A stretch of DNA of 64,000 nt, from positions 1,674,001-1,738,000 of the forward strand of contig NZ_JBFRBH010000001.1 in assembly GCF_040932485.1 (NCBI RefSeq), given 5' to 3'. This document shows positions 299 to 18,474 of the stretch, one piece after another (position 1 is the stretch's first letter; each line of letters opens with the position of its first letter). Origin of the DNA: Gymnodinialimonas sp. 202GB13-11 (GTDB taxonomy: Bacteria; Pseudomonadota; Alphaproteobacteria; Rhodobacterales; Rhodobacteraceae). The position numbers and the translations under genes are program-made. A model generated the notes under the pieces. The model was not told the DNA's origin, did not search any database, and saw only the letters and a list, made by a program, of their open reading frames with translations.

Positions 299-1966
299 TT
301 ATCCCTCTGTCTTAATGTCGGTGCGCCGTGCAAAGCCGGCCTCGTATGGTGGCAACATCATTTCATCGCCCATCGGTTCGCCATCGAAGGGCGAGATGAT
401 CCGTTCCCATGACCCATCGGCCAGCGGCACGCGTTGCGTTTCGTTGCTCAGGTTGAAGGTGCACAGCACCTCTTCGCCCTCATGGCAGCGGATGAATTCC
501 ACCACCGGGCCCACGGCGCGGAGGCCGCGCATCGTGCCTTTGATCAAGGCCGGCTGCGTTTTGCGCCAGTGGATGATCTGGTTGTAGTAGAACAACATGC
601 TTTCCTGCGCGCCGGTCTGCTTGGCGACCGCGCGCGCCAGATGTTCAGGTGCCACCGGCAGCCACGGCTTGGCCTCCGAGAATCCACCATTCTGGTTGTC
701 TGCCACCCATGGTATCGGCGTCCGGCAGCCGTCGCGGCCTTTGAACTTGGGCCAGAAGCGGATGCCGTAGGGGTCCTGCAAATCCTCGAATGCGACATAG
801 GCTTCGGTCAGGCCAAGCTCTTCGCCTTGATAGAGGCAGACCGAGCCGCGCAGGCTGAGAAGCAGCCCTGCGTAAAGTCGGATCGCTTCTTCGCTCAGCG
901 CCCAACGGGAGGCATGGCGGACAACGTCATGGTTGGAAAACGCCCAACAGGCCCATCCGTCACCCACGGAATTCTCGTAATCCGTCAACACCTGCACTAC
1001 CCGGTCGGCATCCGGGGTCACGCCCGAGAGGAACTCGAACGAGTAGCACATGTGCATCTTGTCGCCGCCGGAGGTGTATTCGGCCTGAATCTCAAGGCCG
1101 TATTGCGCATCGCCCACTTCGCCCACAGCGGTGGCCGCCGGGTAGTCTTCCATCACTGCACGCAAGCGACGCAGGAACTCGAGGTTCTCGGGCCGGTTCT
1201 TGTCGTGGATGTGATCCTGCCAGTTATAGGGGTTCACTTCCGGTGCGATGGTGGCATTGCGCGCCTCTGGATCGAGGGCGGGATTGTCGCGCAGATCGGC
1301 ATCGTGGAAGTAGAAGTTGATCGTATCAAGGCGGAAGCCATCGACGCCGCGGTCCAGCCAGAAGCGCGCCACGGACAGCAATTCTTCCTGCACATCCGGG
1401 TTGTGGAAGTTCAGATCGGGCTGCTCTTTCAGGAAGTTGTGCAGGTAATACTGCATCCGTTCGCCGGACCATTCCCAGGCCGAGCCGCCGAAGATCGACA
1501 ACCAGTTGTTGGGCGGCGTGCCATCGGGCTTGGCATCGGCCCAGACATACCAATCGGCTTTGGCGTTGGTCTTGTTCTGCTGGCTTTCCTGGAACCAAGG
1601 GTGCTGGTTCGACGTATGGCTGAGCACCAGATCGATCAGCACCTTCAGCCCCAGATCATGGGCGCGTTTGATCAGCGCGTCGAAATCACCGAGCGTGCCG
1701 AACATCGGGTCCACGTCGCGGTAATCGCTAACGTCATAGCCGAAATCGAGCATGGGCGAGCGGAAGAAGGGTGAGATCCAGATCGCATCGACGCCAAGAT
1801 CGGCAATATGCTCCATCCGGTGGATGATGCCCGCCAGATCGCCGATCCCGTCGCCGTTGCTGTCCTGAAAGCTGCGCGGGTAGATCTGATAGATCACTGC
1901 GCCGCGCCACCAATCCTTGTCCGGTGCCACGATGTCGCCTTGGGGCATGTCCTGCATCAGGTTCAT
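299..1966 (-). CDS. aglA: Alpha-glucosidase, GH13 family
   Basis: A 555-residue cytoplasmic GH13 alpha-glucosidase that would hydrolyse imported alpha-glucosides such as sucrose, maltose or trehalose to hexoses. Visible family signatures are a calcium-loop-like DSNGDGIGD (35-43), conserved region I (DLVLSHTS, about 112-119), the nucleophile Asp214 in GFRLD, the acid/base Glu283 in VGEVGD and the transition-state Asp347 in FSNHD. There is no signal peptide. It sits 14 bases after the permease aglG and 5 bases before aglK, so it is co-transcribed with the transporter. Exact substrate preference cannot be read from sequence. Confidence 0.92.
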
Positions 1967-1980
1967 GGCCGTATCGTTCC

Positions 1981-3129
1981 TTACTTAACCGAGCCGGCCA
2001 GCAGGCCGCGCACGAGGTAGCGTTGCATGGTGAAGAAGACGAGCAGCGGAACCGCGATGGAGACGAATGCCGCCGTCGCAAGGATACCCCAGTCGCCGCC
2101 GCGTGAACCCAGAAGGTCGTCCGCGATCTTCACGGTCATCACGGCTGCGTCGCCAGCCGAGGGCAGGAACACCTTGGCCACCAGAAGGTCATTCCAAGTC
2201 CACAAGAACTGGAAGATCGCGAAGCTGGCCAGTGCCGGGAACGAAAGCGGCAGAATGATCTTCGTGAAGATCTGGAAATCCGTCGCGCCGTCTACCTTGG
2301 CGGACTCGATGATATCTCGCGGCAGGCCGACCATGTAATTGCGTAAGAGGTATATCGCGAGCGGTAAGCCGAACCCTGTATGGGCTAACCATATGCCTAC
2401 GAAGCTCTGACCGATCCCGAGCTGGTTGTGCAGGTTCAGCAAAGGTACGAGCGCTAGCTGGAGGGGCACCACGAGTAAGCCCACCACCGCTGCGATCAAA
2501 AGCCCCCTTCCCGGGAAATCCATCCATGCCAAGGCATATGCCGCGAAAGCCGCGATCAGGATTGGGATGATCGTTGCCGGGATCGTCACCGTCAGCGTGT
2601 TGATGAACGCGCGGTCCATATTATCGGCGGTCAGAACCGTTCGGTAATTGTCGAGGGTGAATTCCGGTGGCGTTTCGGCCACGAAGTATACGCGCGGCGC
2701 GCCGTCTATCGGCTCAGGCGAGGTGTAGACATAGGTGCCGTCGGCATTCACCTGAATGGTGCCGCCATCGCGGTTCTCGGCCTCCGTCCCGGCCTCAAAC
2801 GCGCCCGGCTCCCGCCCGCGCAGACCGAAGGCCGCGATGGAGCTTTCACCATCCTCAAAGCTTTCGCGCACTTCCTCGGATTCGAAGATATTGCCTTCGA
2901 TCACGAAGAGGTTGCCCTGCTCCGTTGGGGTTGCATCAGCGCGTGTGCGGTACGTCAGTTCCACCGAGAAGGGGGCCACCCACCAGCCCGAGGCCGCGAT
3001 CTGGTCACGGTCCCGGAAGGAGCTGACGAAGAGGCCCACGGTCGGAATGAGCCAGGCGATCACGATCAGAAGCACCGCGATGTTGGTGACAAGGGAAAGG
3101 CTGCTTTTCTGTCCTGCGATATTGTCCAT
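1981..3129 (-). CDS. aglG: Alpha-glucoside ABC transporter permease AglG
   Basis: A 382-residue inner-membrane permease of the MalG type. The N-terminal transmembrane helix is followed by a long extracytoplasmic segment (about residues 50-165) rich in acidic and polar residues, then the usual five-helix core. The EAA loop that docks on the ATPase is visible as DIIESAKVDGATDFQIFTKI. The large periplasmic insert makes the protein about 100 residues longer than ordinary MalG homologues; this length is characteristic of AglG proteins. It lies 12 bases after aglF. Confidence 0.92.
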   Translation of the reverse strand: MDNIAGQKSSLSLVTNIAVLLIVIAWLIPTVGLFVSSFRDRDQIAASGWWVAPFSVELTYRTRADATPTEQGNLFVIEGNIFESEEVRESFEDGESSIAAFGLRGREPGAFEAGTEAENRDGGTIQVNADGTYVYTSPEPIDGAPRVYFVAETPPEFTLDNYRTVLTADNMDRAFINTLTVTIPATIIPILIAAFAAYALAWMDFPGRGLLIAAVVGLLVVPLQLALVPLLNLHNQLGIGQSFVGIWLAHTGFGLPLAIYLLRNYMVGLPRDIIESAKVDGATDFQIFTKIILPLSFPALASFAIFQFLWTWNDLLVAKVFLPSAGDAAVMTVKIADDLLGSRGGDWGILATAAFVSIAVPLLVFFTMQRYLVRGLLAGSVK

Positions 3130-3141
3130 TGCTCTTCCCCC

Positions 3142-4122
3142 TCAGCGCATTTCTTTGCGCGCTTGCGCGATGTTCCAGATCATCACTGGCAGAACCACCA
3201 GCATGATCACGAAGGCCACGGCCGTTGCCTGCCCGTCGTCGCGGAACATGAAATCCATCATGAAGGACGGCAGGATCTCGGTCCCGAAATTGCCGCCGGT
3301 CATGGTGTAGACGATGTCGAAAACCTTGAGGACGAGGATGGTGATGGTCGTCCAGACCACCACAATCGTGCCCATGATCTGCGGCACCTTGATCTTGAAG
3401 AAGACCTGGAACGGGTTCGCGCCGTCGATGATCGCGGCTTCCACCGTTTCCTCGGGGATGCCGCGCAGGGCCGCGCTTAGGATCACCATGGCAAAGCCCG
3501 TCTGGATCCAGATCAGGATGATCATCAGCAGGAAGTTGTTCCAGAATGGGATTTGGAGTGGATCAATCCCCTCCTCCGCGCCGAAGTAGAAGCGGATGGC
3601 GTTGATGATGCCGATGTCACCGTCCTGTGCGTAGACAAAGCGCCAAATAAGCGACGCGCCCACAAAGCTGATTGCCATGGGCATGAACACCAACGATTTG
3701 GCGATATTGCCCCAGCGCAGGCGATCGGTCAGCTGCGCGATCACAAGGCCAAGGAACGTAGCCCCCGCAGGCACCACAAGCGCCCAGAGGATGTTGTTGA
3801 GGAAGGCCTGCCGGAAATCGGGGTTGTTGAAGAGGCGCGCGTAATTGCCTAGCCCCACAAACTCATCGCCGCTCCGGTCGTAGAGCGAGCGGAAGAACGA
3901 GCCGACCACCGGGTACATCAGGTACAGCCCCAGCGCGAACATGGCCGGGAACAGGAAGACCCAAGGGCGGATCATGTTGGCGCGGTTAATGTTGCGCCCT
4001 GCATTTTCACCACGAGCGGGGAACAGCACCTTATCGATGAAGAGGTTGGCGAAGTAGAAATACCCCACGCAGCCGCCCACGCCGATGATAATAGTGATGA
4101 TGCCTTGAATGACTGGCGACAT
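3142..4122 (-). CDS. aglF: Alpha-glucoside ABC transporter permease AglF
   Basis: A 326-residue MalF-type permease. An N-terminal hydrophobic segment precedes the conserved six-helix core, and the EAA coupling motif is seen as PEETVEAAIIDGANPFQVFFKI. It forms the heterodimeric membrane channel with AglG. The start chosen is the ATG preceded by a GGGAGGGGCGC purine tract. It is second in the operon, about 155 bases after the binding-protein gene; that larger gap is common where the binding protein is made in excess. Confidence 0.92.
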   Translation of the reverse strand: MSPVIQGIITIIIGVGGCVGYFYFANLFIDKVLFPARGENAGRNINRANMIRPWVFLFPAMFALGLYLMYPVVGSFFRSLYDRSGDEFVGLGNYARLFNNPDFRQAFLNNILWALVVPAGATFLGLVIAQLTDRLRWGNIAKSLVFMPMAISFVGASLIWRFVYAQDGDIGIINAIRFYFGAEEGIDPLQIPFWNNFLLMIILIWIQTGFAMVILSAALRGIPEETVEAAIIDGANPFQVFFKIKVPQIMGTIVVVWTTITILVLKVFDIVYTMTGGNFGTEILPSFMMDFMFRDDGQATAVAFVIMLVVLPVMIWNIAQARKEMR

Positions 4123-4277
4123 GGTGCGCCCCTCCCCCGGTCGAATGGTGTTGGCAGATGCGCTCTGGCCGGGCGGGCCGCATTGGGCCGGTCGTGCGCC
4201 GGTTTATCCGACTTGGCTGGCACCCGGCCCGCAGTTTTGCGGGCCGAGGCCGGTATCATTTTCCGTGAGTGGACGGA

Positions 4278-5627
4278 TTACTGGATTTCGGACCAGCGAT
4301 CCTGGATGCGGCCTGCAACCGAAGCGGCGTCTTCGCCACCCACATAGTCGACCATGCCGGACCAGAAGATGCCCTGACCGATTTCCGACGGCATCAGGTC
4401 CGATGCGTCAAAGCGGAAGGTCGTGGCCCCCAGCAGGATGTCGTTCATCTGACGCAGCGTGTCAGAGGCGAACAGGTCGCTGTTCACACCCGAATGCGGT
4501 GTCAGGAAGCCCGACTGTGCCATCCACACTTCGTGCGCGATCTCGGTCTGCAGGAACGCGATCAGCGCCTGAGCGCCTGCGCTGTCCTGCGTGATGCCGA
4601 AGGCCGTGCCAGCGCCCAGAACGGGCGAGCCAAGGTCTTCACCGGCGAACGCTGGGAAGTAGAAGAAGTCGCTGTCCGCATCTTCAGGGAAGAAGGTCGG
4701 GATGAACGACGCCTGACGGTGCATGTAGCACTCCGCCGGGAACGTGAAGAGGCCTGCGGGGCTGTCACGGAAGTCGGTGGAGGCCACAGCCTCGGATCCG
4801 CCATTGACCCAATCATTGTTGCGCGCGAACGAACCGAAGACTTCGATGGCGTTCACAACCGCCGGATCGTCAAAGCCGATCTCGTTGGCAACCCACTGGT
4901 CATAAACCGACGGGTCCTGCGTGCGCAGCATGATGTCTTCAACCCAGTCCGTGGCCGGCCAGCCGGTTGCAGCACCGGAACCCAGCCCAATGCACCAAGG
5001 CGTCTCTCCGTCGGCGACGATCTGTTCGGACAGCGCGATCAGGTCTTCCATGGTTTCAGGAATGTCGTAGCCTGCTTCATCGAAGGCTTCCGGCGAATAC
5101 CAGACCAGCGATTTCACATCGACCTTGTAGAAGAAGCCGTAAAGCGCCTCTTCACCGTCGGGGCCAGCAGCCGTCGCCAGCGACACCCACGATTCACCGG
5201 CCGCGTAGTTGTCGCGGATCCAGTTGGCCGTGTCTTCGCTCAGCGGCGTCAGCTCACCGCGCGATGCGAGGTCTGCAATCAGGCCGGGCTGCGGGAAGAC
5301 GGCAACGTTCGGGGCCGAATCGGCCTGCGTCGCGATCACGATGTCCTGCTCAAAGCTGTCGGAGCCGGAATATTCCACAACTGCGCCAGTGGCGGATTCG
5401 AAGTAGTCGAGAACCGAATTCACAAGCTCAGCGTCAGCACCCGTCCAGGGGCCAGTGATGGTGACAGTCTCACCCGACAGGTCGAACCCATCGGCGAACG
5501 TGTTGTAGCTGTCCCAGTTAAAATCGCCTTCGCCAACGGCAAAAACGTGGTTGATGTGACCATCAGCCAGTGCGCCGCTCGCGGAAAGCGCCAGTGCAGC
5601 CGCACTGGCCAGATACATCTTCTTCAT
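4278..5627 (-). CDS. aglE: Alpha-glucoside ABC transporter substrate-binding protein
   Basis: A 449-residue periplasmic solute-binding protein of family 1. The reading frame is open further upstream, but the ATG at 5627 is preferred because it begins a clear signal peptide (MKKMYLASAAALALSASGALA, cleaved before DGH) and has a GGGAGG ribosome-binding site about 8 bases upstream. The mature protein shows typical family features such as FTFPAECYMHRQ and a two-lobe layout. It is the first gene of the agl operon and diverges from the LacI-type regulator. Binding specificity for alpha-glucosides is inferred from the operon. Confidence 0.92.
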   Translation of the reverse strand: MKKMYLASAAALALSASGALADGHINHVFAVGEGDFNWDSYNTFADGFDLSGETVTITGPWTGADAELVNSVLDYFESATGAVVEYSGSDSFEQDIVIATQADSAPNVAVFPQPGLIADLASRGELTPLSEDTANWIRDNYAAGESWVSLATAAGPDGEEALYGFFYKVDVKSLVWYSPEAFDEAGYDIPETMEDLIALSEQIVADGETPWCIGLGSGAATGWPATDWVEDIMLRTQDPSVYDQWVANEIGFDDPAVVNAIEVFGSFARNNDWVNGGSEAVASTDFRDSPAGLFTFPAECYMHRQASFIPTFFPEDADSDFFYFPAFAGEDLGSPVLGAGTAFGITQDSAGAQALIAFLQTEIAHEVWMAQSGFLTPHSGVNSDLFASDTLRQMNDILLGATTFRFDASDLMPSEIGQGIFWSGMVDYVGGEDAASVAGRIQDRWSEIQ

Positions 5628-5698
5628 AGGTGACCTCCCAGTCAGTTTCGCGCGGGGCCGTGTCGCCCAGCGCGTGCAGTGCCCCGCTGCGCCTCTCT

Positions 5699-5712
5699 CC
5701 AAAGCGCTTTGG
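5699..5712. promoter_or_regulatory. LacI-family operator upstream of aglE
   Basis: A perfect 14-bp palindrome, CCAAAGCGCTTTGG, lies 72 bases before the aglE start. Its AAGCGCTT core is typical of LacI/GalR-family operators in alphaproteobacteria. A second copy of the core lies 164 bp away, next to the aglR start. Confidence 0.75.
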
Positions 5713-5720
5713 GTTAGCGA

Positions 5721-5750
5721 TACACTTGCCGATGCAAAGGCCGCTGTCAA
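5721..5750 (-). promoter_or_regulatory. Candidate aglE promoter
   Basis: On the minus strand a perfect TTGACA (5745-5750) is followed 17-18 bases later by a weak -10-like element (AAGTGT/AGTGTA, around 5721-5727). The palindrome at 5699-5712 lies directly downstream, where a bound repressor would block polymerase. The -10 match is poor, so the assignment is tentative. Confidence 0.4.
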
Positions 5751-5860
5751 TGAGACTCTGCAAACAACAGAAAAATCATGGAATTTTGGACCATCTGGTC
5801 AGAGAATGCGTATTTCCCCCTTTGACAGCGCGGCAGAGCTGCCGCTAGCTTACTTCTGAT

Positions 5861-5878
5861 TTTCGAAGCGCTTTGAAA
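5861..5878. promoter_or_regulatory. LacI-family operator upstream of aglR
   Basis: An 18-bp near-palindrome, TTTCGAAGCGCTTTGAAA, has eight of nine base pairs symmetric and the same AAGCGCTT core as the site at 5699-5712. It ends 11 bases before the aglR ATG, a position suited to autoregulation. Confidence 0.7.
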
Positions 5879-5889
5879 GCTGATTTCGT

Positions 5890-6924
5890 ATGAATCTCAA
5901 GGAATTGTCCGAGTCGCTCGGACTGAGCCAAACCACAGTCAGCCGCGCTTTGAACGGCTACCCCGAGGTTCGGGAAGAAACCCGTATGCGCGTTCGCGCG
6001 GCGGCGGAGGCTGCGAATTACACACCCAACGCCAAGGCCCGCAGGCTGGCAACCGGGCGCGCGATGGCGATTGGCCACGTGATGCCGCTCACCGGTAAAG
6101 AAGAGCTGGTAAACCCGATCTTCGCCGACTTCATCGCCGGTGCGGGAGAAATCTACGCCCGCGAAGGCTATGACCTGTTGCTGTCGATGGTGCCCGCTGA
6201 AGGGACAGAGGCGGCGTACCGTCAGATGGCCGCCAATGCCTCCGTCGATGCTGTCATGGTTCAGGCCCCCACAATGGACGATGCGCGCGTCCCGCTTTTA
6301 CAGGAACTCGGTCTGCCCTTCTTGGTTCATGGGCGCACGGGCACGCCGGAGGGCTACTCCTGGCTCGACGTGGCCAATATCCGCGCCTTCCGCCGGGCGA
6401 CCGACTTCCTCTTGGATCTCGGCCACCGCAGAATTGCGTTGATCAACGGTCAGGAAAGCCTCGATTTCGCCCGCCGCCGTCGCCTCGGGTTTGAGCAGGC
6501 CATGGCCGCGCGCGAGGTCTCACCCAACGCCGCATGGATGCGATCGGACGTGATGACCGAGCAATATGGCTACCGCGCCGCCTGTGAGATGTTGGACGCA
6601 GGCGATGGGCCAACGGCCTTTCTGGCTGCCTCGATCATTCCCGCCATAGGGATCCGCCGCGCTGCAGGCGAGCGTGGGCTCAAGATCGGGCGCGACGTGT
6701 CGATCATCTGCCATGATGACGGACTCAGCTATATGGGCAACGAAGGCATCAGCGCGCCGGACGGCCCCGCGTTTACGGCCACACGCTCCTCCATCCGGGC
6801 AGCGGGCCAGCGCTGTGCGGAGATACTGCTCAGCCTTATCGACAATCCCAAACAGCCGCCCATCCAAGAGCTGTGGGATACCGACCTTTCGCTGGGGCGC
6901 TCCACAGGCCCTGCCCCCGCCTGA
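5890..6924 (+). CDS. aglR: LacI-family transcriptional regulator of the agl locus
   Basis: A 344-residue repressor. The N terminus is a LacI helix-turn-helix (MNLKELSESLGLSQTTVSRA) followed by the hinge helix region NAKARRLATGRA, and the remainder is a periplasmic-binding-protein-like effector domain with the family motif DFLLDLGHRRIALING. It is divergent from aglE and precedes the GH1 glucosidase by 25 bases, so it probably controls both arms through the two AAGCGCTT operators. The effector is presumably an alpha-glucoside or a derived sugar; that is inference. Confidence 0.9.
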   Translation: MNLKELSESLGLSQTTVSRALNGYPEVREETRMRVRAAAEAANYTPNAKARRLATGRAMAIGHVMPLTGKEELVNPIFADFIAGAGEIYAREGYDLLLSMVPAEGTEAAYRQMAANASVDAVMVQAPTMDDARVPLLQELGLPFLVHGRTGTPEGYSWLDVANIRAFRRATDFLLDLGHRRIALINGQESLDFARRRRLGFEQAMAAREVSPNAAWMRSDVMTEQYGYRAACEMLDAGDGPTAFLAASIIPAIGIRRAAGERGLKIGRDVSIICHDDGLSYMGNEGISAPDGPAFTATRSSIRAAGQRCAEILLSLIDNPKQPPIQELWDTDLSLGRSTGPAPA

Positions 6925-6949
6925 CCCTTTGCCTGACAAGGACACCAAA

Positions 6950-8257
6950 ATGAACTTCACCCGCGCCGACTTCCCCGACGGCTTCCGCTTTGGCGTCGCC
7001 ACGTCCGCCTACCAGATAGAAGGCCACCAATTCGGCGGTGCCGGCCTGACCCATTGGGACAGCTTCGCAGGCACACCCGGCAATGTCGTGCGGTTCGAAA
7101 ACGGCGCGCTGGCCTGTGACCATTACAACCGGCTGGATGAAGATCTGGACCTGATCGCGGGGCTTGGTGCGGATGTCTACCGCTTCTCCACCTCCTGGGC
7201 GCGGGTCATGCCCGAAGGCACGGGCGCGGTGAACGGCGAGGGTCTGGATTTCTATGACAGGCTGGTCGACGGGTTGCTGGAACGCGGAATTTCCCCTGCC
7301 CTGACCCTGTATCACTGGGAACTCCCGCAACCGCTGGCCGATCAGGGCGGCTGGCGCAACGTGGACATGCCGAACTGGTTTGCCGACTATGCCGAGGTTG
7401 TGGCGGGCCGCCTTGGCGACCGCCTCTGGTCCCTCGCACCGATCAATGAGCCCTGGTGCGTCGGCTGGCTGTCCCACTTCGATGGTCACCATGCGCCCGG
7501 CTTGCGCGACATCCGCGCCACTGCCCGTGCCATGCACCATGTGCTAGTCAGCCATGGCCGGGCCATTCAAGTGTGTAAGGGTCTGGGTGTCCAAAACCTC
7601 GGCGCGGTCTGCAACTTTGAATGGTCCACGCCCGCATCAGATGCCCCCGAAGATGTCGCTGCAGCCACCCGCTACGATGCAATTTACAACCGCTTTTTCC
7701 TCGGCGGCCTCTTCAAAGGAGAGTATCCGGCGGAGGTGCTCGACGGATTGGAGCCGCATCTGCCCAACGGCTGGCAAGACGACTTCCCGACGATCCAATC
7801 GCCGCTCGATTGGGCCGGGATCAATTTCTACACACGAAAACGCCTCGCCCATGTGCCGAACGCCCCCTGGCCCGCCTACGCAGAGATGCCCACCCAAGGC
7901 CCGACCACCGATATGGGGTGGGAGATCTACCCCGACGCCTTGCAAATGTTTCTGACCCGCATGGCGCGCGAATATACTGGTGACTTGCCGATCTACGTGA
8001 CCGAAAACGGCATGGCCTCAGCAACAAATCCTGACCCTGACCGGATCGAATACCTCGACCAGCACTTGCGTGCCGTACAAGCCGCTATCGCCGAAGGTGC
8101 TCCTGTTGCCGGCTATTTCGTCTGGTCCCTGATGGACAATTACGAATGGGCGCTGGGGTACGAGAAACGCTTTGGCCTTGTCCATGTGGACTTCGACACC
8201 TTGGCAAGGACGCCCAAAGCATCCTATCACGCGCTGGCAGATTGGTGGCGCGGCTGA
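6950..8257 (+). CDS. Beta-glucosidase, GH1 family
   Basis: A 435-residue cytoplasmic GH1 enzyme that would release glucose from beta-glucosides. The acid/base Glu167 lies in APINEPW and the nucleophile Glu352 in VTENGM; the N-terminal FRFGVATSAYQIEG signature is also present. The ATG at 6950 is preferred over longer in-frame starts because upstream starts run inside aglR and the homology begins at MNFTRADFPDGF. It follows aglR by 25 bases and precedes glk by 28, consistent with an aglR-bgl-glk unit. Confidence 0.92.
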   Translation: MNFTRADFPDGFRFGVATSAYQIEGHQFGGAGLTHWDSFAGTPGNVVRFENGALACDHYNRLDEDLDLIAGLGADVYRFSTSWARVMPEGTGAVNGEGLDFYDRLVDGLLERGISPALTLYHWELPQPLADQGGWRNVDMPNWFADYAEVVAGRLGDRLWSLAPINEPWCVGWLSHFDGHHAPGLRDIRATARAMHHVLVSHGRAIQVCKGLGVQNLGAVCNFEWSTPASDAPEDVAAATRYDAIYNRFFLGGLFKGEYPAEVLDGLEPHLPNGWQDDFPTIQSPLDWAGINFYTRKRLAHVPNAPWPAYAEMPTQGPTTDMGWEIYPDALQMFLTRMAREYTGDLPIYVTENGMASATNPDPDRIEYLDQHLRAVQAAIAEGAPVAGYFVWSLMDNYEWALGYEKRFGLVHVDFDTLARTPKASYHALADWWRG

Positions 8258-8285
8258 CGCGCGGCCTGCCGGGTAAGGAACGATC

Positions 8286-9224
8286 ATGGCCCTATCACTC
8301 GTCGCCGATATCGGAGGCACCAACACCCGCGTGGCCCTTGCCGACGACGCGCATGTCCGTGTTGACAGCGTCTCGCGCTATCGCAATGCCGAGCATCAGG
8401 GCATTGCGTCCGTCATCGCCCGCTATCTCGACGATACCGGGCAGGACCGCGATGCGATTTCGGGCTGCTGCGTGGCGATGGCCGGCCCGGTACATGATGG
8501 TGTCGGCACGCTGACAAACCTCGATTGGCGCATCGACAAAGCGGTTTTGGCCGATGCGTTGACTGCTGATAAGGTAGCTGTGCTGAACGATCTGCAAGCG
8601 CAGGGCCATGCGATTGGCCATATTGCTTCAGATGATCTTGAAGTTGTTCTTCCCCAACCGGAGGTTCCCGCGACGGCCGCCAAACTCGTCATCGGATTGG
8701 GCACCGGGTTCAACACTTGCCCCGTTTTCGACACAGCTGCAGGGCGCTTCGTTCCGCCGTCTGAGGCGGGGCATGTCAGCCTGCCCGCGTCGATCACTGC
8801 ACTTCACGGAATTCTGGGCGCACTTGGCGATTCCAAGGGTTTCCCGTCGGTCGAAGAAGTGCTGTCTGGCCGCGGCGTCAGCAATCTGCACCGCGCCTTG
8901 CATGGCGTCCTCATTGGACCGGCCGACATACTGGCCCATATCGGATCCGGCGATGAAGCGGCTTGCGAGACCGGCGCGCTGTTCGTGGAAGTGCTTGGGG
9001 AAGTGGCCGGCAATCTTGCCCTGACGCACCTGCCCTTTGGCGGCATTTACCTTGTCGGCGGCGTGGCCCGCGCCTTTGCCCCGCACCTGGACCGGTTCGG
9101 CTTTGTGGAAGCCTTCCGCGCCAAAGGCCGGTTCTCAAACTTTATGGAGCAATTCGGGATCAGCGTTGTCAGCGACGATTACGCGGCCCTGACGGGCTGC
9201 GCGAACCATCTATCGCACCTCTAG
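8286..9224 (+). CDS. glk: Glucokinase
   Basis: A 312-residue hexokinase-fold kinase that phosphorylates glucose with ATP. The phosphate-binding motif VADIGGTNTRVAL is at the N terminus, and VIGLGTGFNT and GGIYLVGGVA are further signatures of the non-ROK Glk family. It follows the GH1 glucosidase directly and so captures glucose released by AglA and the beta-glucosidase. It is convergent, 42 bases apart, with the aldo/keto reductase whose proposed product is also glucose. Confidence 0.9.
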   Translation: MALSLVADIGGTNTRVALADDAHVRVDSVSRYRNAEHQGIASVIARYLDDTGQDRDAISGCCVAMAGPVHDGVGTLTNLDWRIDKAVLADALTADKVAVLNDLQAQGHAIGHIASDDLEVVLPQPEVPATAAKLVIGLGTGFNTCPVFDTAAGRFVPPSEAGHVSLPASITALHGILGALGDSKGFPSVEEVLSGRGVSNLHRALHGVLIGPADILAHIGSGDEAACETGALFVEVLGEVAGNLALTHLPFGGIYLVGGVARAFAPHLDRFGFVEAFRAKGRFSNFMEQFGISVVSDDYAALTGCANHLSHL

Positions 9225-9266: not shown

Positions 9267-10157
9267 TTACGCGACCTCGTGGCCAAGGGCGGCTGTGTAG
9301 ATTTCAAACCAGTCGACGCGGCTGAGATTTACTTTAACAGCATCCGACAAGCCCTTTATCCGGCTGAGGTTGTTCGTTCCCATCACCGGCAGGATCTTGG
9401 CCGGGTGACGCAGAAGCCACGCGACGGCCACGGCGTCCGCGCCGACGCCCTGTTCGGTCGCAATGCGGTCAAGGACAACGCGCACCGAAGCCCCTTCATC
9501 GCCAAACAGCGCACCCCCGGCCAAAGGCGACCAAGCCATCAGCGGCTGATTGCGTTGCTGGTGGTAGGCCACATCGCCATTGGTGAACGGCACATGATGC
9601 AGAACGGACATCTCAATCTGGTTGGTCGCCAGTTGCGTGTCCATCGCCGATTGCAGCAGGTCCCAATCCCATGGACGGAAGTTCGAAACGCCCACAGCAC
9701 GGATCTTGCCGGACGCCACCAGCTTATCGAGGCAGGCGCCGGTTTCCACGTGATCCATCAGCGGATCGGGGCGGTGGATCAGCAGCAGGTCAATGACGTC
9801 AATCGCCATATCTTTCAAGGAATTATCGACACAAGCTGAGATGTACTCCGCACTCGTGTCGTAATACTTCACCCGCTTGTCGGAGTGCTTTCCGATGGGT
9901 GCCACGATATCGCATTTGGTCACGATCTCGACCTTGTCGCGCAGGCCCGGCGACGCCTTGAACGCCTCCCCCAACAGCGCCTCGGCGATGTAGCCACCGT
10001 AAATGTCGGCCTGATCCAATGTCGTGATGCCCTGCTCAAGGCACGCCTCGACCTTCGCCTGCACATGGGCGGGCGAGGTGTCGTCATCATCTCCCAGCCG
10101 CCACATACCGTAGACGATTTGGGACATCTCGATGCCCCCGACATTGATACGATCCAT
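9267..10157 (-). CDS. Aldo/keto reductase; candidate 6-oxo-glucose reductase (SmoB-like)
   Basis: A 296-residue NAD(P)H-dependent aldo/keto reductase of the YdhF-like branch. The catalytic tetrad is readable: Asp48 and Tyr53 in LDQADIYGG, Lys81 in VTKCD and His128 in LLIHRPD. The ATG at 10157 shares its first base with the stop of the monooxygenase gene (TGATG), so the two are translationally coupled. In the known sulfoquinovose monooxygenase pathway an aldo/keto reductase (SmoB) reduces 6-oxo-glucose to glucose; the pairing here suggests the same role, but family membership alone does not prove the substrate. Confidence 0.8.
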   Translation of the reverse strand: MDRINVGGIEMSQIVYGMWRLGDDDDTSPAHVQAKVEACLEQGITTLDQADIYGGYIAEALLGEAFKASPGLRDKVEIVTKCDIVAPIGKHSDKRVKYYDTSAEYISACVDNSLKDMAIDVIDLLLIHRPDPLMDHVETGACLDKLVASGKIRAVGVSNFRPWDWDLLQSAMDTQLATNQIEMSVLHHVPFTNGDVAYHQQRNQPLMAWSPLAGGALFGDEGASVRVVLDRIATEQGVGADAVAVAWLLRHPAKILPVMGTNNLSRIKGLSDAVKVNLSRVDWFEIYTAALGHEVA

Positions 10158-11311
10158 CAGCGACGCTCCCCTGTGCCCAAAGGCGTAGTGGGCGTGCCGC
10201 TTGGCACCCGTCCATAAACCTCTGGCATTGAACATGTTTTCAGCTCGGGCATGACCAGCCGCCCGAAGTGTTTGCATTCATCCATATGCGGATAGCCCGA
10301 GAAGATGAAAGCGCGGATGCCCATCTTTTTGTATTCCTCGATCTCGCTGAGGACCTGATCGGCGGAGCCGACCAGCGCCGCACCACATCCCGACCGCGCA
10401 CGGCCCACGCCGGTCCACAGATGCGGCTCGACATAGCCATATTTGTCGGCCAATTCGCGGGCCTTGGCCTGATGCGACACGCCCAGAGACGTCGAATCCA
10501 GGGCCCGTTCGCGGATCAACTGACCGTATTCGTCGTCCAGCTTTGACGTCAGATGCTCCGCATATTCGCGCGCCTCAGCCTCCGTGTCGCGCACAATCAT
10601 GTGCACCCGCAGGCCATAATCAAGCGTCCGGCCATAACGTTCGGCCACCGCGTTAACGTCCCGCATCCGCTGCGCCAGCGCCTCTTTCGGCTCGGGCCAC
10701 ATTAGATAGATGTCGCAATGATGACCGCACAGCTCCAATGCGGGCGGGGAATAGCCGCCGAAATACAAAAGCGGTCCACCGGTCTGAAAGGGGCGCGCTG
10801 GATCGGTCGTTAACCCTGCGAAATCATAGACTTCGCCTTGATAGTTAATCTCGTCCTGTGTCCAGGCCTGCTTCAGGATTTCGACCACCTCGCGGGAACG
10901 CTGGTAGCGAAACCCACTCTCCGCCTTCTCGCCTGGAAAGTCGGACGAGATGATGTTCACCGTCAGCCGTCCCTCCAGCATGTGGTCGAGCGTGGCGATG
11001 GTCCGCGCCAGCATGATCGGCTGCATCTCTCCGCAGCGCACGGCGGCCAGCAGGTTGATCTTGTCGGTGATCGGCGCGCAACCCGCCACGAAAGACAGCG
11101 TGTCCTGCCCCACCTGATAGGACGACGGGCACAGGATATTCCGAAACCCCTGCGCCTCAGCCTCTTTCACGATGCCCGAGCAATGATCCCAAGAGGATCG
11201 CAACTTGCCATCCGGCACGCCCAGGAATTCGTAGTCGTCCGAGCAAAGGGCTGCGAACCAGCTGACTTCGGCGGCGTCCAGATCTGCCGATGTGACGGGA
11301 ACCACTGTCAT
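10157..11311 (-). CDS. SsuD-like FMNH2-dependent sulfonate monooxygenase; candidate sulfoquinovose monooxygenase
   Basis: A 384-residue bacterial-luciferase-fold monooxygenase most like alkanesulfonate monooxygenases. Sulfonate-site residues of E. coli SsuD (as I recall: Trp196, Arg226, His228, Arg297, Tyr331, His333) all have counterparts at a constant offset of nine: Trp205, Arg235, His237, Arg306, Tyr340 and His342. The SsuD residues His11 and Cys54 have no obvious match, so it is a divergent member. The start at 11311 follows a GGGAGGA site; longer starts would run into the divergent promoter. It is coupled to an aldo/keto reductase and diverges from a GntR regulator. No flavin reductase is nearby. 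Confidence 0.8.
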   Translation of the reverse strand: MTVVPVTSADLDAAEVSWFAALCSDDYEFLGVPDGKLRSSWDHCSGIVKEAEAQGFRNILCPSSYQVGQDTLSFVAGCAPITDKINLLAAVRCGEMQPIMLARTIATLDHMLEGRLTVNIISSDFPGEKAESGFRYQRSREVVEILKQAWTQDEINYQGEVYDFAGLTTDPARPFQTGGPLLYFGGYSPPALELCGHHCDIYLMWPEPKEALAQRMRDVNAVAERYGRTLDYGLRVHMIVRDTEAEAREYAEHLTSKLDDEYGQLIRERALDSTSLGVSHQAKARELADKYGYVEPHLWTGVGRARSGCGAALVGSADQVLSEIEEYKKMGIRAFIFSGYPHMDECKHFGRLVMPELKTCSMPEVYGRVPSGTPTTPLGTGERR

Positions 11312-11364
11312 CCCTCGCGTCCTCCCTTGCGCGGTCGTTTCTTCTCGGGTAGCACCGGAGAAAC

Positions 11365-11386
11365 GGTATATCAATGGTATATCAAT
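11365..11386. promoter_or_regulatory. Tandem 11-bp repeat, probable GntR operator
   Basis: GGTATATCAAT occurs twice back to back (11365-11375 and 11376-11386) in the 100-bp gap between the divergent monooxygenase and GntR genes. The period of one helical turn and the TGGTATA core, which resembles NagR/HutC-type boxes, suggest it is the binding site of the adjacent regulator. Confidence 0.6.
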
Positions 11387-11411
11387 TCCGGCCAGCGAGG
11401 GAGGACGCGCG

Positions 11412-12164
11412 ATGCCGAAGACGCTGCGCGCTACAGCTGCGCCCGTGCTGCCAGACGCGCCCACGGGCGCCCTGCCCACCTACCTGCGCATCGCTGAAGA
11501 GTTGACACGCGACATCGGCTCAGGTCGCTTGGCGGCGGGCGACAAGCTCGCCCCTGAACGCGCAATGGCGGCGGAAAAGGGCGTGGCGGTGGCGACCCTG
11601 CGCAAGGCATTGCAGCTGCTGGTAGATCGCGGGTTGATCGAACGGCGGCAGGGGTCGGGGAACTATGTGTTGGGCGGCAACCGGTCGGTCGGCACCTACG
11701 CGCTGCTGCGCCTCGAACTGGCAGGCCAAGGCGGCGGCTTGCCCACAGCCCGCGTGCTCGACATGACGCGCGCGGCAAAGCCCGCCACCCTTCCCCGCAT
11801 CGGTGCCTCAGACATCGGCCTGCGCATTCGTCGCCTTCGCTTCCTGTCGGACACGCCTGTCGCCGTCGAAGAAATCTGGCTCGACGCGCGCTGGCTCGAC
11901 CGCGGGCCGCTGACCCCGCAAAACATCTCGGAATCGCTTTACCGCAGCTACGAGGATCGGCTCGGTCTGAAGATCATCGAAGCTGAAGATGTGATCCGCA
12001 TGGGCGCGCTGCCAGCTTGGACGCCAAGCGAACTGGGTCTCGCGCAGGCCACGAATCTACCCCTCATTGAGCGCCGCGCCTTTGATCAGAACGGACAGGC
12101 CGCCGAGGCCAGTTGGACATGGTACGACCCCGAGCGTGCCCAATATTTCGCGCGGGTGCCATGA
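11412..12164 (+). CDS. GntR-family (HutC/UTRA) transcriptional regulator
   Basis: A 250-residue regulator. Residues about 20-90 form a GntR winged helix (LPTYLRIAEELTRDIGSGRL through GLIERRQGSGNYV) and the C-terminal half is a UTRA ligand-binding domain of the HutC type. The ATG at 11412 has a GGGAGGA tract nearby; longer in-frame starts overlap the repeats at 11365. It diverges from the monooxygenase/reductase pair and is 25 bases ahead of the Gfo/Idh/MocA gene, so it likely controls both directions. The ligand is unknown; a sulfosugar is plausible from context. Confidence 0.87.
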   Translation: MPKTLRATAAPVLPDAPTGALPTYLRIAEELTRDIGSGRLAAGDKLAPERAMAAEKGVAVATLRKALQLLVDRGLIERRQGSGNYVLGGNRSVGTYALLRLELAGQGGGLPTARVLDMTRAAKPATLPRIGASDIGLRIRRLRFLSDTPVAVEEIWLDARWLDRGPLTPQNISESLYRSYEDRLGLKIIEAEDVIRMGALPAWTPSELGLAQATNLPLIERRAFDQNGQAAEASWTWYDPERAQYFARVP

Positions 12165-12189
12165 CACCCAAACAACAGGGAACACGAAC

Positions 12190-13278
12190 ATGACGCGCTA
12201 CGGCATCGTCGGCTCCGGGATGATGGGGCAAGAGCATATCCGCAACATCGCGCTTCTCGCTGGCGCCGAAGTCAGCGCCTTTTGCGAGCCTGATGAAGGG
12301 ATGGCGCAGGCCACCGCCGCGCTTGTGCCCGGTGCCGTGCGTTGCCCGGACCTTGAGGGCGTTGTGCAACGCAACGATGTGGATGCGCTTGTCGTGGCCT
12401 CGCCCAACCACACCCATGTCGACGCTCTCAAACGCATCGCGGCCACGCGCCCCCTGCCCGTGCTTATGGAAAAGCCGCTCTACACCGACCCCGCCGATGA
12501 GGCCGTGCTGGCCAAGCTCGTCAACGACTACCCCGCCCCCATCTGGGTCGCGATGGAATACCGCTACATGCCCCCCGTCGCGAAATTCCGCGAGCTGTGC
12601 GATCAAGCCACCGGCGGCATCAAGATGCTGGCGATCCGCGAACATCGCTTTCCATTTCTGGAGAAAGTCGGCGACTGGAACCGCTTCAATCGCAATTCCG
12701 GCGGAACCTTGGTCGAGAAATGCTGCCATTTCTTCGACCTGATGCGCCTGATCCTGCGCGATGAAGCCGTGCGTGTGATGGCCAGCGCCGGGCAAGCCGT
12801 GAACCACCTTGATGAAACCTACAACGGCGAGACGCCCGATATCTGGGACAATGGCTTTGTGATCGTGGATTTCGCCCGCGGCAGCCGCGCCATGCTGGAC
12901 CTTTGCATGTTCGCCGAAGGCAGCGAGTATCAGGAAGAGATCAGCGCCGTTGGCCCCGCAGGCAAGATCGAGGCAAAGGTTCCGGGCCCCACGCGGTTCT
13001 GGAACTTCGACATTGGCCCTGCGCCGACGCCAAAAGTCATCGTCAGCCCGCGTATGCCCACCACTGGCAAGGTGGTGCATGAAACCCCCGTGGACAAAGA
13101 CCTGCTGACAGCGGGTGATCACCACGGCTCGACCTACTACCAGCACTTGCGCTTCCTTGAGGTGGTGCGCAAAGGCTGGACGCCGGAAGTCACACTGGCC
13201 GATGGGGCCGCTGCCGTGCGCATCGGCATGGCGGCACAGGAAAGCGCCGTGACCGGGCGCGCGGTTCCCCTGATCTGA
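12190..13278 (+). CDS. Gfo/Idh/MocA-family NAD-binding protein; possible NAD-dependent glycosidase
   Basis: A 362-residue protein with an N-terminal Rossmann fold (YGIVGSGMMGQEH) and the family EKP motif (LMEKPLYTD), followed by the alpha/beta substrate domain. Most relatives are sugar dehydrogenases, but this superfamily also contains NAD-dependent glycoside hydrolases, including the sulfoquinovosidases placed in family GH188, which are reported in Roseobacter clusters lacking a GH31 sulfoquinovosidase. The window has no GH31 enzyme and the gene lies beside a sulfonate monooxygenase, so the hydrolase role is a reasonable hypothesis. A sugar or inositol dehydrogenase is the alternative. Confidence 0.8.
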   Translation: MTRYGIVGSGMMGQEHIRNIALLAGAEVSAFCEPDEGMAQATAALVPGAVRCPDLEGVVQRNDVDALVVASPNHTHVDALKRIAATRPLPVLMEKPLYTDPADEAVLAKLVNDYPAPIWVAMEYRYMPPVAKFRELCDQATGGIKMLAIREHRFPFLEKVGDWNRFNRNSGGTLVEKCCHFFDLMRLILRDEAVRVMASAGQAVNHLDETYNGETPDIWDNGFVIVDFARGSRAMLDLCMFAEGSEYQEEISAVGPAGKIEAKVPGPTRFWNFDIGPAPTPKVIVSPRMPTTGKVVHETPVDKDLLTAGDHHGSTYYQHLRFLEVVRKGWTPEVTLADGAAAVRIGMAAQESAVTGRAVPLI

Positions 13279-13299
13279 GCGCCGCGCTAGACTGCCTTC

Positions 13300-14148
13300 A
13301 TGTCAGACCGGATCGACATCGGCATCGACGGCGGCGGCTCCGGCAGTCGTGTCATCGTATCAACGCAAAACCGCGAGGCGTACGCCGAGGGCGGTCCCGC
13401 GAATGTTGTTACCGATCCTGCCGCCGCCGAGGGCGCAATCCGCGAAACGGTTTTGGACGCACTCGGTCAACTCTCTCGCAGTCTCGAAGATCTTGAAGCC
13501 GCACGGATCGTCGCCGGTCTCGCAGGATGCCGCTTGCCCGGGGTCGCCGACACCTTCGCCATCCGCCTGCCCTTCCTCGCCTATGTGGTCGATGACAGCG
13601 TCACCGCGCTTGAAGGCGCGTTTGGCGGTGGGCATGGCACGCTTGTGAACCTTGGCACCGGATCATTCTTCATTCGCAAAGACGACCGAGGCGTGACGCA
13701 TCATGGCGGCTGGGGGTTTGTTCTGGGTGATGAAGGCTCGGCGGCTTGGTTGGGGCGCGAGGCGTTGCGCGAATTGACCCTTATGGAAGACGGACGGATG
13801 CAAACGCACGCGGATGACCCGCTGCGCGACGCCCTACTCGAGGCGTGCAATGGGCTTCATCCGTCACAATTTGCCATGCAAGCGGCGCCAGAAGACTTCG
13901 CAGCGCTCGCCCCGCTCATCTTTGACCAAAGCACAGCTTGGGCGCACGCGTTGCAACGACGCGTCCAAACCTGTGTGGAACAAGGGTTGGAAGACATCGG
14001 CCATCCAGACGGCACGTCATGGGCACTGACAGGTGGCCTTGGTCTTGCCTTGGCTGAACGGTTGAGCGGGCCGATCACCGGCGGCCTGCAAGCACCCCAA
14101 GGCAGCGCGCTCGATGGTGCCCTTACGATGGCGCGGTCCTTGCCCTAG
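13300..14148 (+). CDS. BadF/BadG-type ATPase, probable sugar or amino-sugar kinase
   Basis: A 282-residue protein of the BadF/BadG/BcrA fold related to N-acetylglucosamine/glucosamine kinases. The phosphate-1 motif IGIDGGGSGSR opens the protein, with LVNLGTGSF and GWGFVLGDEGSAAWLG as further ATPase-fold signatures. It follows the Gfo/Idh/MocA gene by 21 bases and ends overlapping, tail to tail by 4 bases, the NDP-sugar dehydratase. In this cluster it could phosphorylate the sugar released by the upstream enzymes, possibly glucose; substrate is not determined by the sequence. Confidence 0.78.
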   Translation: MSDRIDIGIDGGGSGSRVIVSTQNREAYAEGGPANVVTDPAAAEGAIRETVLDALGQLSRSLEDLEAARIVAGLAGCRLPGVADTFAIRLPFLAYVVDDSVTALEGAFGGGHGTLVNLGTGSFFIRKDDRGVTHHGGWGFVLGDEGSAAWLGREALRELTLMEDGRMQTHADDPLRDALLEACNGLHPSQFAMQAAPEDFAALAPLIFDQSTAWAHALQRRVQTCVEQGLEDIGHPDGTSWALTGGLGLALAERLSGPITGGLQAPQGSALDGALTMARSLP

Positions 14149-16365: not shown

Positions 16366-18474
16366 ATGACGACGGGAAACGACGCTGAAACAAGCGGTGC
16401 AACGGGTGGCGAGATTGACCTGTTTGCATTGGTGCGCACCCTTTGGCGCGGGAAGTATTGGATCGCGTTGTTTTCGATCCTGTCGATGCTGGTCTTCGGG
16501 TTTTATACGATGCGGTTTGTTGCGCCGATGTATCCGGCGCGGGCGAGCGTGGTTTTGGAAGTGCAGGACCAGCAGGTCATCTCGGACATCGAGAGTGTTT
16601 TTGCCGGCGCGGGAACAGATCTATCGGCGATCAATACCGAGATTGAGGTGTTTCGGTCTCGCGAACTGATCGGGCGATTGGTCGACGACCTCGACCTCGT
16701 GAACCATCCGGAGTTCGGCAATACGGACGGACGGGGCGTCGTAAGCTTTGTTCGAACCCTAATCAGTGATTGGGAGCCGCCCACCATCGAAGGCGAGGAG
16801 TTGCGGAACCTCGTGATGGACCGTCTCATCAACCGGCTTGCAATCACGAATATTCGCCAATCCTTTGTTTTCAACATCTCGATTGAAACCCGAAATCCGG
16901 AAGACTCAGCGCGTATCGTGAACAGACTGGCCGAGCTATACGTTGAGAACCAGATTCAGCGAAAGCTGGATGAGCAGACCCGCGCCATCGAGTTTCTGTC
17001 GCTCAGAACCTCCGAGTTGGAAGCAAACCTCGAACAGCTCGAACAAGGCCTTGCGCAACGTATGGAACAATCCGACGTGATCGACGGCGACGTGCTCCAG
17101 GCTCAGAATTTGCAACTACGCGATACACGCGACCGTATCGCAGAGACAGAAGCAAGACTGACCCAAGCCACGGCCCTATCGGATGCCTTGGCCGCTGCCG
17201 AAGGGGCCGAGGCTTTGATCGCCGTGGCGGAAAACTCGGGCGACACGCGGTTCAATGCAATTGTTCAGCGCTTTCAAGACGGCCGCCTTGGCGCGGCTGC
17301 AACCGAGATCGCGTTGCGCGAAGTACAAGACGATATCAGCGCCGATCTGCGCCGCTTGGAGGCACAGCTGACAAGCCTGCGCCGGTCGGAAACAGAGCTG
17401 ACCAATCAGTTCAACAACCAATCCGAAGAGCTGATCGAACTTCAACAGCTTGAGCGCGAAGCCAATACGGCGCGCCTGCTCTATGAGACGTTCCTGACGC
17501 GCCTTCAGGAGGCCAGCGTTCAGCGCGGGCTTGAAACAGCAGACAGCCGGATCTTGTCGGAAGCCATTCCGCGGCCTGCGTCCAGCCCACGAATTATGAT
17601 TACCCTCGCCCTTGCCGCAATTCTGGGTGCGATGGCCGGGGCGGCTCTTGTGCTGATCCGCGAATGGCGTTTCGCTGGCTTCCGCACGACCGACGAGATG
17701 CGCCAAACGCTCCCCGTTTCGGTTCTGGGCTCCCTGCCTGCCATGACAAGCAGCAAACGCATCGAAGTGCTGAACCATCTGCGCGAGAAGCCCAATTCTG
17801 TCTTTGCCGAGGCCGTGCGCAACCTGCGCACCTCGATCCTGATGTCCAACCTCGACCGCGCCCCTCAGGTGATCCTTCTGACGTCTTCGGTTCCGGGCGA
17901 AGGCAAGACGACCCTGTCCATTGCACTCAGCCGCTATCTGCGTGCGCTGGAGGGCAAACGTGTGCTGCTCGTGGAAGCCGATATTCGCCGCCAAACGCTG
18001 CGCGCATATGTTGGGGAAGGCCATCAGGCAGGTGTCCAGCTAATCGATGTCGTTTTGGGCCGCGTGGCACTTGAGAATGCGAACCTCATGGATGATGAGC
18101 TTGGCGTCGAAGTCCTGATGGGCTCAGGCGGCGATTTCAACGCCGCCGACCTTTTCGAGTCCCGCCGCTTCCAGGACCTCATCACCAAGTTGCGCGAGCA
18201 TTACGACCATATCATCATCGACAGCCCGCCTGTTCTGGCCGTCCCCGATGCTCGCGTCCTGTCGCGCTATGCCGATGTCAGTGTTTTCGCCGTGCGTTGG
18301 AGCCACACGACCCGCACCCAGGTTCGACAGGGCCTGGAGATGCTCAATAGCGTGGGTCACCCCGCGGATGGTGTTGTCCTTACCCAAGTGGACCAGCGCA
18401 AAATGAAGGGCTACGGCTATGCCGGGCAATACGGGTATGACGGATACGCGTCAGGTTATTACGCAAAAGACTGA
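16366..18474 (+). CDS. Polysaccharide co-polymerase fused to BY-type tyrosine kinase (Wzz/Wzc-like)
   Basis: A 702-residue inner-membrane protein that sets chain length and drives export of exopolysaccharide. Order: cytoplasmic tail, transmembrane helix (about 33-52), Wzz periplasmic domain with long coiled-coil (190-400), second helix (about 405-425), then a kinase domain. Walker A (SSVPGEGKTT) is near residues 505-514, Walker A' is VLLVEADIRR and Walker B is HIIIDSPP near 614. The last 20 residues contain seven tyrosines in a Gly-Tyr-rich tail, the usual autophosphorylation cluster. No Shine-Dalgarno stands out before the ATG. Confidence 0.9.
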   Translation: MTTGNDAETSGATGGEIDLFALVRTLWRGKYWIALFSILSMLVFGFYTMRFVAPMYPARASVVLEVQDQQVISDIESVFAGAGTDLSAINTEIEVFRSRELIGRLVDDLDLVNHPEFGNTDGRGVVSFVRTLISDWEPPTIEGEELRNLVMDRLINRLAITNIRQSFVFNISIETRNPEDSARIVNRLAELYVENQIQRKLDEQTRAIEFLSLRTSELEANLEQLEQGLAQRMEQSDVIDGDVLQAQNLQLRDTRDRIAETEARLTQATALSDALAAAEGAEALIAVAENSGDTRFNAIVQRFQDGRLGAAATEIALREVQDDISADLRRLEAQLTSLRRSETELTNQFNNQSEELIELQQLEREANTARLLYETFLTRLQEASVQRGLETADSRILSEAIPRPASSPRIMITLALAAILGAMAGAALVLIREWRFAGFRTTDEMRQTLPVSVLGSLPAMTSSKRIEVLNHLREKPNSVFAEAVRNLRTSILMSNLDRAPQVILLTSSVPGEGKTTLSIALSRYLRALEGKRVLLVEADIRRQTLRAYVGEGHQAGVQLIDVVLGRVALENANLMDDELGVEVLMGSGGDFNAADLFESRRFQDLITKLREHYDHIIIDSPPVLAVPDARVLSRYADVSVFAVRWSHTTRTQVRQGLEMLNSVGHPADGVVLTQVDQRKMKGYGYAGQYGYDGYASGYYAKD

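Follow-up and report, generated by a model that had tools for sequence, protein, structure and literature searches.

Sulfoquinovose (SQ), a sulfosugar of plants and algae, is produced at a rate of 10 billion tons annually (PMC10755693), and among its reported users are Roseobacters. How would a bacterium with a compact block of candidate SQ genes bring the sugar in, cleave its carbon–sulfur bond and control the process, and where would the parts that the block lacks be found? We put this question to a 64,000-nucleotide stretch of contig NZ_JBFRBH010000001.1 of the marine bacterium Gymnodinialimonas sp. 202GB13-11 (positions 1,674,001 to 1,738,000; hereafter the window, in whose numbering local positions are given). 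The block consists of five intact open reading frames at 9267–14148. Two lie on the minus strand, adjacent and overlapping at TGATG: a monooxygenase gene (smoC) and an aldo/keto reductase gene (smoB). Diverging from them on the plus strand are a regulator gene (gntR), a Gfo/Idh/MocA family gene (sqgA) and a BadF-type kinase gene. A preliminary description of this DNA had set out the divergent layout and the overlap, both of which are present, and had read the block as a sulfoquinovose monooxygenase (sulfo-SMO) cluster that turns SQ into glucose and sulfite. We consider it highly likely that the block is a sulfo-SMO SQ desulfonation cluster equipped with a GH188 sulfoquinovosidase, in which the GntR protein would run smoCB, gntR-sqgA-badF and a distant ATP-binding cassette (ABC) importer. 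The sequence evidence covers the enzyme families, their conserved active sites, a tandem repeat upstream of smoC and a second copy of that repeat; from it we infer every activity, the repression and the substrate of the importer.

The monooxygenase and reductase resemble SmoC and SmoB

Over residues 1–383 of its 384, the monooxygenase matched PDB chains 7oh2 (710 bits) and 7olf (707 bits), as against 199 bits for the alkanesulfonate monooxygenase chain 7jv3 and 188 bits for 1nqk and 1m41. The reductase reached 429 bits with 7bby and 7bbz, compared with 219 bits for the next-best aldo/keto reductase. We take 7oh2 and 7olf to be SmoC, and 7bby and 7bbz to be SmoB; the molecule names in the PDB file are generic. 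With the SMO chains this far ahead of SsuD-type chains as the best solved matches, the core of the preliminary reading, SQ to glucose plus sulfite, is supported. Residues D48, Y53, K81 and H128 of SmoB fall within located aldo/keto reductase motifs and presumably form the tetrad of that family.

Could SmoC nevertheless be an ordinary SsuD-type alkanesulfonate monooxygenase that serves sulfur scavenging? Both belong to the luciferase-like family, with the same fold, chemistry based on reduced flavin mononucleotide (FMNH2) and the same six sulfonate-site residues, and SmoC matches the SsuD equivalog model TIGR03565 at E 2.2e-71. At 240.7 bits against a cut-off of 518.2, however, it fails that model, and its scores against alkanesulfonate monooxygenase chains are low beside those against SMO chains. 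The six residues had been offered in the preliminary description as a pointer to SQ, and the positions given for them (W205, R235, H237, R306, Y340 and H342) are right; the alignment with 7jv3 retains them too, so they typify SsuD-like enzymes generally and do not separate SmoC from SsuD, and we rejected them as a mark of SQ specificity. The gene partners of SmoC also differ from those of SsuD. We identified at least 555 confirmed relatives and counted genes per locus in the best 80 loci of these, some of which end early, so that gene counts are lower bounds; smoC is partnered with smoB and a sulfoquinovosidase gene in 78 of the 80. Taken together, an alkanesulfonate-scavenging role for SmoC is in our view barely credible. 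In PMC13372026, the sulfo-SMO pathway is assigned where SmoC and SmoB homologues are encoded nearby, with SmoA not required, and such a pair is encoded close together here, as measured against PDB chains and not against the references of that study.

The Gfo/Idh/MocA protein is a predicted GH188 sulfoquinovosidase

SqgA, the Gfo/Idh/MocA protein, scored 517.6 bits against PDB 8zn9, 368.4 against 8qc3 and 359.9 against 8qc2; 8QC2 and 8QC3 are deposited as SqgA, the founding GH188 NAD-dependent sulfoquinovosidases (PMC10755693). We compared eight residues to which the same paper assigns roles in the catalysis, substrate binding or sulfonate clamp of ArSqgA, and all are conserved. The catalytic and substrate residues Lys107, Tyr136, Glu189, His193 and His321 correspond to K95, Y124, E176, H180 and H311, and the clamp residues Arg166, Leu170 and Lys172 to R153, L157 and K159; Glu163 of ArSqgA could not be placed with certainty in the alignment. 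Since its clamp consists of R153, L157 and K159, SqgA is not one of the Tyr variants described in PMC11465081.

The GH188 match and the conserved active site together mean that the block does have its sulfoquinovosidase, with an activity predicted from this likeness. The preliminary description had left the gene unassigned and had remarked that no GH31 sulfoquinovosidase stands beside the block. To the letter this is true, as no PF01055 match was found in the genome, but the glycosidase is present in GH188 form. Roseobacter sulfo-SMO clusters almost universally have GH188 and are without GH31, according to PMC10755693.

The cluster might instead desulfonate a different 6-sulfo sugar or sugar sulfonate, with SQ as a minor substrate: the SQ activity is predicted from sequence, and a Paracoccus has been described that degrades another sulfosugar, sulfofucose (PMC12421959). 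SmoC and SmoB, however, match SMO chains far better than other relatives, and the GH188 enzyme FlSqgA was inactive on the glucosides and the glucuronide tested (PMC10755693), which makes this alternative highly improbable.

A tandem repeat upstream of smoC is a candidate operator

Between smoC and gntR, at 11366–11386, lies a tandem 11-bp repeat, ATTGATATACC-ATTGATATAC. Scored in 81 regions (the 80 loci and the window), it matched at least 14 of 18 informative positions in all 81, at least 16 in 77 and all 18 in 51, against a maximum of 13 of 18 in 213 control stretches. Its mean information content is 1.69 bits per column, compared with 0.26 in the preceding 30 bases and 0.70 in the following 40, and a second conserved block, TGCTACGCAAG, starts 11 bases beyond it. 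The second repeat unit contains TTGATA or TTGATC, and a spacing of 17 separates this element from TACGCA; in our own reading the two would fit a −35/−10 pair. Because this unit overlaps the −35-like element, binding at the repeat could block transcription. The GntR protein is presumed to bind here.

Searched with up to two mismatches, the pattern ATTGATNNACNATTGATNNAC had four matches in the genome (one for the control). Two were without mismatch: the smoC site and a site at genome positions 3791211–3791231, 2.1 Mb apart. We also examined a family sample of 295 genomes, including that of Gymnodinialimonas sp. 202GB13-11 (G-numbers designate genomes and L-numbers loci), and matched smoC in 124 of them at an E value of 1e-100 or below. 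The sample held 132 sites with at most one mismatch, spread over 114 genomes, compared with three for a reversed-pattern control. Of the 132, 99 are located 26–89 bp ahead of smoC on its strand, at a median distance of 53 bp; these come from 99 of the 124 genomes with smoC.

The second copy precedes a distant sugar importer

The remote zero-mismatch site stands 178 bp before an operon for a sugar ABC importer, comprising a binding protein, two permeases and an ATPase. Matches to the binding protein at E 1e-50 or better were present in 50 of the 295 genomes, and its four best orthologues outside the own genome (72–76% identity) are encoded 1.5 kb downstream of smoC on the same strand. In these four genomes (G032, G289, G117 and G161; L197–L200), a single operon of smoC, smoB, flavin reductase, binding protein, two permeases and ATPase diverges from gntR-sqgA, with the repeat in between. 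G112 has the pathway divided among three contigs, and a site accompanies each part: one contig holds gntR and smoC-smoB-reductase (L202), another sqgA (L236) and the third the importer (L196), with the site 102 bp ahead of the matched stretch. A second site also occurs in the genomes of L003 and L008, before a binding-protein orthologue of 99% and 97% identity, respectively. With sites at the importers in these genomes, the split arrangement holds for the close relatives of the window and, in another form, for G112.

It could be argued that the enzymes act as proposed while the distant operon encodes a general sugar importer, the repeat before it being due to chance or to another regulator and SQ entering through an agl-type or other system. 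Eight of the 50 genomes with the binding protein have no detected smoC, which means that importers of this family are not confined to SQ clusters, and most genomes with the BadF-type kinase have no second repeat site. The binding-protein gene of an agl-type importer, moreover, occurs in 16 of the 80 loci in at least three arrangements, and agl genes join the smo operon in three of them, directly after its flavin reductase gene in L069 and L079 and with a LacI gene intervening in L082. Within the window, however, the best stretches besides the smoC site score 13 of 18 (44–64 and 16615–16635), which is the control maximum, and the neighbouring agl cluster has its own LacI and GH13; for these reasons we ranked its importer lower as a route for SQ. 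The nearest sampled orthologues of the distant importer, by contrast, are smo-operon genes in four genomes, and the site before it is kept in the own genome, in two close relatives and in G112. We therefore think a general sugar importer unlikely. The agl genes near smo loci may reflect glucose as a shared product.

A profile comparison aimed at SmoF, which binds sulfoquinovosyl glycerol, matched nothing beyond generic sugar-binding proteins. A sugar ABC binding protein of the same kind as the distant one (cluster 26) is encoded in 11 of the 80 loci (L009, L011, L018, L019, L024, L033, L037, L041, L044, L048 and L080).

Further copies suggest a dispersed regulon

The sample has 33 sites in places other than upstream of smoC, and 15 of them are at genes of a smo cluster, sqgA, the importer, a soeABC-like operon or an EamA/MocR pair. 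The ABC importer has a site before it in two genomes (own genome and G112), five sites lie in or by a smo cluster (G040, G127, G159 and two in G037, one of these last inside smoB) and two precede sqgA genes detached from smoC (G112 and G151). Four precede operons (G082, G257, G163 and G293) that encode a molybdopterin oxidoreductase of 939–953 amino acids, a 4Fe-4S protein and, in the operons read that far, a DmsC-like anchor (Pfam matches were obtained for G082 only); in G293, a putative exporter gene lies between site and operon. We take this architecture to be that of the sulfite dehydrogenase SoeABC, and the operons are probably sulfite-oxidising; the substrate is conjectural, as a thiosulfate reductase (129 bits) is the best match among solved structures. 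The repeat before them would tie sulfite oxidation to SQ use in those genomes. The last two sites (G032 and G249) are flanked, as we read the translated frames, by genes for an EamA-like transporter and a MocR-like regulator; they may belong to the regulon or serve a different regulator whose site is similar.

Beyond the block itself, we find it fairly likely that SQ use in the family is organised as a dispersed regulon marked by this one repeat. In the Roseicyclus lineage, it would comprise smoCB, gntR-sqgA-kinase and a distant ABC importer whose family has so far had no link to SQ, with the usual tripartite ATP-independent periplasmic (TRAP) importer and the dedicated flavin reductase lost and the BadF kinase gained as a glucokinase; elsewhere, the repeat would reach detached sqgA genes and soeABC-like operons. 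Several observations weigh against our reading of the block and its control. In 25 of the 124 genomes with smoC, no site of one mismatch or fewer was found within 200 bp of the gene, and 18 of the 33 remaining sites look like chance, 11 being inside predicted reading frames and seven near unrelated-looking genes. The genomes of L004 and L005 hold 10 and 11 motif matches, and of the 16 loci read there, two are smoC sites and 14 lack any query gene; the motif may have spread in these genomes, or a different regulator may use a similar site, and we did not use these matches as support. One of the 14 kinase-type genomes has no repeat site, and most of the other 13 have the smoC site only (the one extra site in G298 is inside smoB). 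G136 carries a binding-protein orthologue of 69% identity with no smoC detected, and none of the 12 and 35 solved chains matched by the binding protein is named as SQ-binding, although such names may be generic. Finally, the flavin reductase usually linked to the cluster has a best own-genome match of 28% identity. For the TRAP binding protein the figure is 29% (TRAP permeases were not searched), and with matches this poor, the linked reductase and the TRAP importer both look lost.

A part missing from a cluster may thus merely lie elsewhere in the genome, and the repeat, if the regulon is real, would be a usable marker for such parts. The repeat leads from the smo genes to an importer far off and, in related genomes, to putative genes of sulfite oxidation, so that import, control and the handling of sulfite can be tested directly.

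A proposed route from SQ to glucose phosphate

In the route that we propose, SQ or its glycosides, such as sulfoquinovosyl glycerol (SQGro), would be imported, probably by the ABC importer 2.1 Mb away, and SqgA would free SQ through a transient NAD-dependent oxidation at C3. SmoC, with oxygen and FMNH2 supplied by a reductase encoded elsewhere, would cleave the C–S bond to give sulfite and 6-dehydroglucose, which SmoB would reduce to glucose, and the BadF-type kinase, glk or both would phosphorylate the glucose. The GntR protein would control smoCB, gntR-sqgA-badF and the distant importer through the tandem repeat. The enzyme steps rest on established work for these families.

The intergenic gaps of 25 and 21 bp make gntR, sqgA and the kinase gene a likely operon. 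The kinase matched PDB 1zc6 at 85.7 bits, the hexokinase 2e2n at 33.8 bits and the NagK_SO3507 model at 92.8 bits (cut-off 370), and from these family matches and the position of its gene we propose it as the pathway glucokinase. In tblastn searches of the same 80 loci, with more than 40% identity demanded for the flavin reductase and the TRAP binding protein, the kinase was found in 14, a linked flavin reductase in 62 and the TRAP binding protein in 46. Kinase and linked reductase never occur together, and the window belongs to the kinase group; L010, L011, L037 and L063 have neither, L010 and L063 being short on the smoB side. The kinase was rejected as a clade marker: its distribution requires at least four changes on the SmoC tree and is therefore not that of one clade or a single gain.

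As the preliminary description had pointed out, none of the five genes encodes a flavin reductase or a sulfite exporter. Elsewhere in the genome there are two Flavin_Reduct proteins, six TauE matches and one PF00174 protein. The last was not used as a sulfite oxidase; in L131 its neighbouring frame is one that we take, on our own reading, to be MsrQ-like.

The window at 299–9224 holds a glucoside cluster with GH13, agl-type ABC permeases and binding protein, LacI, a GH1 beta-glucosidase above the TIGR03356 cut-off and a glucokinase gene, glk (Table 1). The best models for glk are glucokinases, all below cut-off, and the gene occurs in eight of the 80 loci; by association, it could phosphorylate the glucose made by the smo pathway.

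Table 1. Positions of the block, its neighbour glk and loci with further copies of the repeat; unprefixed positions are in the window, others follow the locus named
Feature	Position	Strand	Remarks
smoB	9267..10157	-	aldo/keto reductase, predicted to convert 6-dehydroglucose to glucose
smoC	10157..11311	-	FMNH2-dependent sulfoquinovose monooxygenase by PDB chain matches
candidate operator, tandem 11-bp repeat	11366..11386	-	54 bp before smoC, 25 bp before gntR
gntR	11412..12164	+	GntR/UTRA regulator (PF00392, PF07702), presumed to bind the candidate operator
sqgA	12190..13278	+	Gfo/Idh/MocA family; predicted GH188 NAD-dependent sulfoquinovosidase
BadF/NagK-type sugar kinase	13300..14148	+	PF01869; 21 bp after sqgA; proposed glucokinase
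glk	8286..9224	+	glucokinase of the neighbouring glucoside cluster
soeABC-like operons with repeat	L193 4026-6885; L243 1391-4998; L259 1-3292; L248 1-3303		four family genomes
EamA-like/MocR-like sites	L192 5641-7700; L247 2110-4775		
motif loci in the L004/L005 genomes	L204-L205; L217; L222-L232		

Relation to known systems and distribution

The core finding is known, since GH188 sulfo-SMO clusters have already been reported for Roseobacters: the sulfo-SMO pathway is described as prevalent in that clade (PMC13372026), and the gntR-sqgA/smoC-smoB cluster type is published (PMC10755693, PMC13372026). One example of this type, the cluster of the Ruegeria sp. TM1040 megaplasmid, likewise has gntR-sqgA diverging from adjoining smoC-smoB and no GH31. 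It runs on into flavin reductase and TRAP importer genes, however, both of which are missing here, whereas in our block sqgA has a BadF kinase gene after it and 2.1 Mb separate the block from its likely ABC importer. The smo-ABC operons of G032, G289, G117 and G161 share the core, the repeat and an orthologous binding protein, two permeases and ATPase, but include importer and flavin reductase in the smoCB operon, while here the importer is separate and the reductase missing. The Agrobacterium cluster, which holds the GH31 enzyme SmoI, the SmoEFGH importer, the flavin reductase SmoA and the exporter SmoD, has SmoC and SmoB chemistry in common with ours; here GH188 replaces GH31, and importer, reductase and exporter are not local. 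With the core chemistry known, the split regulon and the kinase would amount to a modest new variant. A limited literature search yielded no description of the SQ importer, the control of the pathway or sulfite handling in Roseobacters, and an earlier report is possible.

Among the 80 loci, smoB is present in all and gntR with sqgA diverges from smoC-smoB in 78; in the two exceptions (L010 and L046), the contig stops a short way upstream of smoC. The closest smoC among the matches listed, at 97% identity, is that of an uncultured Roseicyclus (L003). A Rhizobium plasmid (L233, NZ_CP063398.1, 7999–16885) carries the Roseobacter layout, with genes for a Gfo/Idh/MocA protein, GntR, a monooxygenase (smoC, 77.8% identical), an aldo/keto reductase, a flavin reductase, a TRAP importer and an exporter; this copy suggests horizontal spread of the cluster. 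A Qingshengfaniella alkalisoli plasmid typed as mobilizable (L235, NZ_CP042264.1, 8209–13310) has smoC, gntR and TRAP genes, and no smoB, flavin reductase or sqgA is listed beside smoC in its gene table, which is incomplete there.

Some copies are altered. At L194 (G040:C37:2000-15000), 5857–8834 contains the repeat, smoB, flavin reductase, TRAP, gntR and sqgA genes, with smoC absent between repeat and smoB. The cluster of L195 (G037:C139:24000-42000) is rearranged: gntR-sqgA and a flavin reductase gene point away from each other at a zero-mismatch site of their own, and smoC-smoB-ABC has a separate second site. Another family member has a partial smoC match with one in-frame stop (G216:C7:10419-11060).

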